A DNA stretch of 64,000 nt from positions 67,001 through 131,000 of the forward strand of contig OU612066.1 in assembly GCA_914767715.1 (NCBI GenBank), read 5' to 3'. Below the pieces are notes generated by a model that saw only the letters and a list, made by a program, of their open reading frames with translations, was not told the DNA's origin and made no database searches. This document shows positions 20,470 to 21,371 of the stretch, piece after piece. Numbering within the stretch: the first letter of the stretch is position 1; every line of letters starts with the position of its first letter. The DNA comes from Membranipora membranacea. Its lineage: Eukaryota > Bryozoa > Gymnolaemata > Cheilostomatida > Membraniporidae. A program made the translations under genes and the position numbers.

Positions 20470-21371
20470 TTAGACTAGAAGTAAGCTACCCAGCCGACAT
20501 ACATTCTTGTTTAGATTAGAAGTAAGCTGCCCAGCCGACATACATCCTTGTTTAGATTAGAAGTAAGCTGCCCAGCCGACATACATTCTTGCTTAGATTA
20601 GAAGTAAGCTGCCCAGCCGACATACATCCTTGTTTAGATTAGAAGTAAGCTGCCCAGCCGACATACATCCTTGTTTAGATTAGAAGTAAGCTGCCCAGCC
20701 GACATACATTCTTGCTTAGATTAGAAGTAAGCTGCCCAGCCGACATACATTCTTGCTTAGATTAGAAGTAAGCTGCCCAGCCGACATACATCCTTGTTTA
20801 GATTAGAAGTAAGCTGCCCAGCCGACATACATTCTTGCTTAGATTAGAAGTAAGCTGCCCAGCCGACATACATTCTTGCTTAGATTAGAAGTAAGCTGCC
20901 CAGCCGACATACATTCTTGCTTAGATTAGAAGTAAGCTGCCCAGCCGACATACATTCTTGTTTAGATTAGAAGTAAGCTGCCCAGCCGACATACATCCTT
21001 GTTTAGATTAGAAGTAAGCTGCCCAGCCGACATACATTCTTGCTTAGATTAGAAGTAAGCTGCCCAGCCGACATACATCCTTGTTTAGATTAGAAGTAAG
21101 CTGCCCAGCCGACATACATCCTTGTTTAGATTAGAAGTAAGCTGCCCAGCCGACATACATCCTTGTTTAGATTAGAAGTAAGCTGCCCAGCCGACATACA
21201 TTCTTGCTTAGATTAGAAGTAAGCTGCCCAGCCGACATACATTCTTGCTTAGATTAGAAGTAAGCTGCCCAGCCGACATACATCCTTGTTTAGATTAGAA
21301 GTAAGCTGCCCAGCCGACATACATCCTTGTTTAGATTAGAAGTAAGCTGCCCAGCCGACATACATTCTTGC
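20470..21371 (-). repeat. 22 x 41-bp minisatellite made of the ATR terminal codons
   Basis: The period is exactly 41 bp over 22 units. On the minus strand each unit encodes [11 protein letters not shown] (or [11 protein letters not shown]) and TAA, followed by five bases TCTAA. The unit nearest the gene (21331-21371) is the real end of ATR, with the stop at 21336-21338. The other 21 lie after the stop. Two sequence types (GCAAGAATG and ACAAGGATG starts) are interleaved, which suggests repeated unequal exchange or conversion. Confidence 0.97.

Follow-up and report, generated by a model that had tools for sequence, protein, structure and literature searches.

A minisatellite across the ATR stop codon in the bryozoan Membranipora membranacea

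The ATR gene end and its 41-bp array

The window, which is the whole 64-kb stretch of DNA analysed here (C2:67001-131000, chromosome 2 of Membranipora membranacea), carries on its minus strand a gene that we modelled from the UME region to FATC and that probably extends upstream of position 42480 (Table 1). In the model, several exon edges are approximate or left open, and at least one stretch was not found. The joined exon peptides scored 1020 bits against human ATR, 280 bits against yeast MEC1 and about 206 bits against ATM, and the alignment with human ATR stopped one residue short of both C-termini.

A protein database search with the FAT-kinase-FATC part gave 2343 matches. Among the best 120, which were examined, the gene name, where given, was ATR, and exactly four residues followed the final GW in 119, the exception being a plant record that ends in WWMPWF. 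A looser pattern fitted 112 of 120 further matches, and in all 112 of them four residues followed the tryptophan. The window gene has a kinase and FATC nearest to those of ATR and likewise ends four residues past the final (G)W. Since this tail length is that of the homologues, the protein end inside unit 1 of the array is the true end of ATR, and the original prediction that the gene ending in the array is ATR was borne out. No bryozoan name appeared among the matches listed in the two protein searches (120 each), in which many records are unnamed. The top ATR match by bits was a record from the plant Ilex paraguariensis, yet with only 40% identity; it is perhaps a fused or duplicated gene model.

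The genome search covered 339,339,785 bases in 18 contigs; the assembly, tzMemMemb1.1, is described as 339,374,674 bp in 21 scaffolds from 66-fold HiFi reads (PMC10290214). Public data for the species include these reads (ERR6406215), an alternate haplotype (GCA_914767555.1) and RNA-seq (ERR6464929). Only one intact ATR kinase region was found in the genome (26 matches, 36 best-scoring candidates). Eight pieces lie on chromosome 2 with 69-100% identity, the pieces on chromosome 4 belong to a broken copy, and the other 15 matches (30-57%) are on C1 and C9. The small contig C13 was considered as the mitochondrial genome and rejected, its first 10 kb being unlike one; by eye, the frames in C13:1-10000 are unlike the short exons of this animal, and the contig is possibly a contaminant.

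Table 1. Features of the window on chromosome 2 (positions in the window)
Feature	Position	Strand	Remarks
ATR gene, UME region to FATC	21336..42480	-	29 exon pieces modelled
ATR last exon, coding part	21336..21460	-	Acceptor uncertain; phase-1 candidates 21487, 21463, 21460, 21454
41-bp minisatellite, 22 units	20470..21371	-	Repeat analysis
Unit 1: last 11 ATR codons, stop, 5 bases	21331..21371	-	Sole unit in the ATR frame
ATR stop codon TAA	21336..21338	-	
Unit 22, distal edge	20470..20510	-	2 single-unit changes; hypothetical reading TRMYVGWVAYF, stop TAG
First AATAAA past the stop	20258..20263	-	At offset 1075, past the array; the chromosome 4 copy has it too
28-bp x 40 array	22533..23652	-	In the intron preceding the penultimate exon; chromosome 4 has ~1.8 copies there
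Second edge array, 52-bp units	34567..35256	-	13 copies of a 3' splice site and ~22 exon bases
Two-copy duplication across a 3' splice site	38488..38553	-	36-bp offset; acceptors 38541 and 38505; limits from repeated peptide
Window part of the block common with the chromosome 4 end	718..24962	.	Inverted and rearranged

Sequence inspection and TRF showed 22 units at an exact 41-bp period (TRF score 1655, 97% matches, far above chance) some 87 kb into chromosome 2. Unit 1 carries on the ATR reading frame through 11 codons to TAA, and units 2 to 22 (21 units) are copies of its 36 bases plus five. The predicted 22-copy array with ATR's own end as its first unit was thus exact at 20470-21371, and the predicted make-up of the unit, 11 codons, the stop and five bases, was verified in unit 1. 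The 41-bp period is not divisible by three, and a type A unit has, by our own count, a GC content of 44%. A stop codon is present in all 22 units (21 TAA and 1 TAG), as had been claimed; the proposed protection of the frame by these stops follows from the anatomy, would be true of every array that arose over a stop codon and shows no sign of selection. Since the first AATAAA lies past the array, units 2 to 22 are predicted to be 3' UTR.

The units fall into types A (10 units) and B (10 units), which differ at two sites, and a third combination (C, 2 units), one of which is the last unit with two extra changes. Their order is ABBAABBBABCAAABAABBABC. An alternation of two unit types had been claimed, but the order is mixed, the number of runs being 12 and the mean after shuffling 11.0 for the 20 A and B units (the two third-combination units being left out). 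The string BBABC is present twice, and doubling of a block was considered as its origin. Kinship with another 41-bp array (C2:18543-20469) was rejected, since its unit sequence is unlike by eye; that array has 47 units, as against 12 on chromosome 4.

Second locus on chromosome 4 and unit turnover

The genome search gave one other match to the stop array in the 339-Mb genome, at C4:34956678-34956931 (98%; repeat counts in this search are lower bounds). Both loci sit within a block common to the ends of chromosomes 2 and 4, and the chromosome 4 locus is a collinear, inverted and rearranged copy of the chromosome 2 start. The block extends from about 14.6 kb on chromosome 2 to window position 24962 (about 92 kb on chromosome 2) and corresponds to 34924.4-34998.3 kb on chromosome 4, where the copy spans the last 74 kb. 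Its identity is 75-97% with large gaps on both sides, and 24.4-67.7 kb of chromosome 2 is unmatched.

The chromosome 4 copy carries the last three ATR exons, and the genome search with ATR exons found none farther upstream on that chromosome. This ATR fragment is broken: the penultimate exon has lost bases and the last exon has an in-frame TGA. Of the 6 units in its stop array, four have the type A sites (with a further change in one), one is type B and one shows the third combination. Between the two chromosomes, the aligned array flanks have 9 differences in 263 sites and 11 in 230. Since the array is present at both ends, it probably predates the copying of the chromosome 2 end to the chromosome 4 end, and exchange between the two ends may have followed the duplication.

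We then used the flank divergence of 4.06% as a clock for the 28 units on the two chromosomes. At most 3 single-unit changes were seen, whereas 23.3 would be expected had the units been independent since the split, an estimate which assumes that the flanks cover the same time span, that rates are equal and that no units were exchanged between the ends. Two of the three changes share one site, one in each array. Unit 22, at the edge, carries two of the three, and the other units are homogenised. Because so few changes were seen for the number expected, the array units are replaced by copies of one another.

The length of the stop array has changed since the duplication, the 22 and 6 units being a comparison of duplicated loci and not of alleles. 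Both flanks could be matched at 10 distinct array sites, and at eight of these the copy numbers of the two ends differ by a factor of two or more (chromosome 2 first: 22 v 6, 47 v 12, 40 v 1.8, 7 v none, none v 9.3, none v 13.7, 1.0 v 3.1 and 0.9 v 3.0), and at the other two they differ little (25-bp, 2.8 v 3.5; 23-bp, 2.3 v 3.0); a two-flank match is missing for 7 of the 12 arrays on chromosome 2 and 3 of the 11 on chromosome 4. Within the common block, arrays have been gained or lost on each side since the duplication.

Arrays at other exon edges of ATR

The stop array is not the only tandem repeat across an exon edge of ATR (Table 1). In the 52-bp array, only the last acceptor (exon start at 34588) leads into the exon and keeps the reading frame; read in the expected frame, each of the 12 upstream acceptors runs into a stop within 10-11 codons. 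The 13 near-identical acceptors provide a natural test of acceptor choice, and the 52-bp array is potentially of more consequence to ATR than the stop array.

We compared tandem copies at exon edges, in exons and in introns, using the 29 exon pieces with 55 scored edges (three acceptors left open) and positions sampled every 5 bp. Of 3189 intron positions, 781 (24.5%) had tandem copies, as did 3 of the 55 edges and 5 of the 770 positions inside exons, these five all lying within units of the two edge arrays. Arrays are depleted at the ATR exon edges and nearly absent from the exon interiors. At the intron rate, the probability of 3 or fewer of 55 edges is 0.0002; in this test birth rate and selection are confounded and edges count as independent, and the gene model behind it may lack some exons and places some edges only approximately. 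With three edge events in a single gene, arrays may be born preferentially at edges. In three introns, arrays lie 37, 22 and 15 bp from the 3' splice site; a tendency of arrays to hug these sites is not claimed, since the cases were picked post hoc and the distance in three others is 110, 146 and 162 bp.

Under one filter, which misses the 52-bp array at 34567, we counted 8 arrays in the 64-kb window, 2 in C2:5001-67000, none in C2:131001-141000 and 6 in the 71-kb chromosome 4 end. The same filter gave none in 3 x 10 kb of chromosome interior. All these counts together are too few for a claim of enrichment at the ends.

Comparison with known arrays and origin of the stop array

The SLC6A3/DAT1 gene has a VNTR of a 40-bp repeat in its 3' UTR. 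The ATR stop array resembles it in being tandem, in its similar unit length and in its predicted 3' UTR location. The DAT1 repeat is not known to hold a stop codon or coding bases.

A closer likeness is to the amphioxus 'mirage' minisatellites, described in Adh3, in the globins BflGb6 and BflGb9 and in troponin C, with similar repeats in lancelet PGBD5 (PMC3087553, PMC3902484). As described there, these arrays span exon-intron boundaries with the authentic boundary as one unit, evolve in concert within a cluster with the edge units excluded, and vary in length, BflGb6 haplotypes having 6 and 3 units; the authors' data suggest that splicing is undisturbed (PMC3087553, PMC3902484). As in the mirages, the unit of the stop array joins exon to adjoining non-coding bases, the authentic boundary is among the units, the units are homogenised and the edge unit has diverged. 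However, the boundary in the stop array is a stop codon followed by predicted 3' UTR, not a splice junction. The host is also a bryozoan, the gene encodes a checkpoint kinase, and the units are more numerous, at 22, than in either BflGb6 haplotype. Since it lacks a splice junction, we file the stop array as a variant of the mirages and not as a member. The 52-bp array is like the mirages in anatomy, its 13 acceptors supplying the splice junction.

Human genes in segmental duplications contain variable internal tandem repeats (PMC2812944), which, like the arrays here, are minisatellites with differences between the paralogous copies of a duplicated block and an effect on gene structure. Unlike the present case, that report concerns primate paralogues, and the words 'stop codon' do not occur in its main text. 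Human subtelomeric VNTRs (PMC7608644) are similar in that arrays are frequent near chromosome ends, but in that report the enrichment is for patterns above 60% GC, well above the GC content of the ATR unit. In the open-licence literature on arrays at stop codons and splice sites, no stop-codon-spanning array appeared in the titles and abstract openings of the matches listed. The ATR array extends the exon-edge minisatellites to a stop codon, to a bryozoan and to a core checkpoint gene, and its 22 and 6 units at two chromosome ends make up a built-in comparison.

The stop array is a real tandem repeat, and probably a passive one. We judge it likely that it is a gene-edge minisatellite which works like the amphioxus mirages and is tolerated since one intact boundary remains. 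A stretch across the ATR stop codon would have been tandemly duplicated, probably by slippage or by end joining at few-base homology, for which CTTAG at the gene-side edge and CTAAG at the distal edge are candidates. The array would have been in place before the chromosome 2 end was copied, and unequal exchange, slippage or conversion may then have altered its length and kept the units alike. Unit 1 alone would be translated, and the remaining units would lie in the predicted 3' UTR. Any in-register change would leave one complete gene end, so selection would tolerate changes in the array. Nothing suggests that ATR was targeted. The locus is rich in arrays, and targeting need not be invoked if arrays form at many places and persist wherever a complete boundary is left.

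It was originally predicted that the array serves as a donor pool for the terminal codons. In its fuller form, the downstream units and the 6 units on chromosome 4 would convert the coding unit again and again, and the FATC end would thereby evolve in concert with non-coding copies. The part about exchange holds, since units replace each other (at most 3 changes against 23.3) and three variable sites are common to both arrays. In 12 of 22 units the first Ala would be read as Thr, and in one of those 12 the Ala of the GW tail would be read as Val as well. Conversion of the coding unit itself fared less well. Unit 1 is identical in the ATR gene and the chromosome 4 fragment and has Ala in both, but at the flank divergence a 41-bp stretch would be free of differences in 19% of cases (P 0.19). 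Thr stands at the first-Ala site in none of the 120 close ATR matches and in 1 of the 112 wider ones, and this rarity implies that selection would remove most such conversions. On the sequences compared, conversion of FATC codons by array units is possible, and its recurrence with concerted evolution of the FATC end seems to us rather unlikely. Still bolder, and improbable, is concerted evolution at the ATR edges in general, in which 28 stop-bearing units feed FATC conversion (Ala/Thr, Ala/Val) and the 13 acceptors force the spliceosome to choose the last one by exon context; if true, ATR sequence and dose would vary with the stability of arrays that are protected by ATR's own pathway.

The position of the first AATAAA beyond the array, in the chromosome 4 copy too, indicates that the array is probably transcribed, which would suit a functional 3' UTR element acting in stability, localisation, or microRNA or protein binding. 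We find such a role hard to credit, since two 123-nt array pieces show no more folding than shuffled sequences (z -0.10 and -0.05), no Rfam family matches at gathering score in the whole window, and the array is retained in a broken copy with a copy number of 22 vs 6. Tandem arrays are also error-prone in assembly, and the copy number may be off by some units. That the array as such is an assembly artefact is very unlikely, however, given the irregular order of unit types, a distinct 6-unit array with its own flanks at the second locus, 66-fold HiFi reads (PMC10290214), and the lack of any N in C2:1-141000 (except C2:1-5000) and C4:34937000-34996000. The existence of a second locus might suggest a dispersed satellite or mobile element that captured the ATR end and spread copies of it, but this locus lies within the collinear, inverted chromosome-end copy, and no third locus was found in the genome search, in which repeat counts are lower bounds; we regard this origin as extremely unlikely.

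Two further features of the window were recorded. Retrotransposon-like frames broken by stops occupy positions 42776-46888 on the minus strand, where the reverse-transcriptase label was given by eye and the ORF1-like protein has a PF01693-bearing match with 88% identity. Tandem units with inverted repeats (ACAGAGTAAGGATATCCTTACTCTGT) lie at positions 55443-55633.
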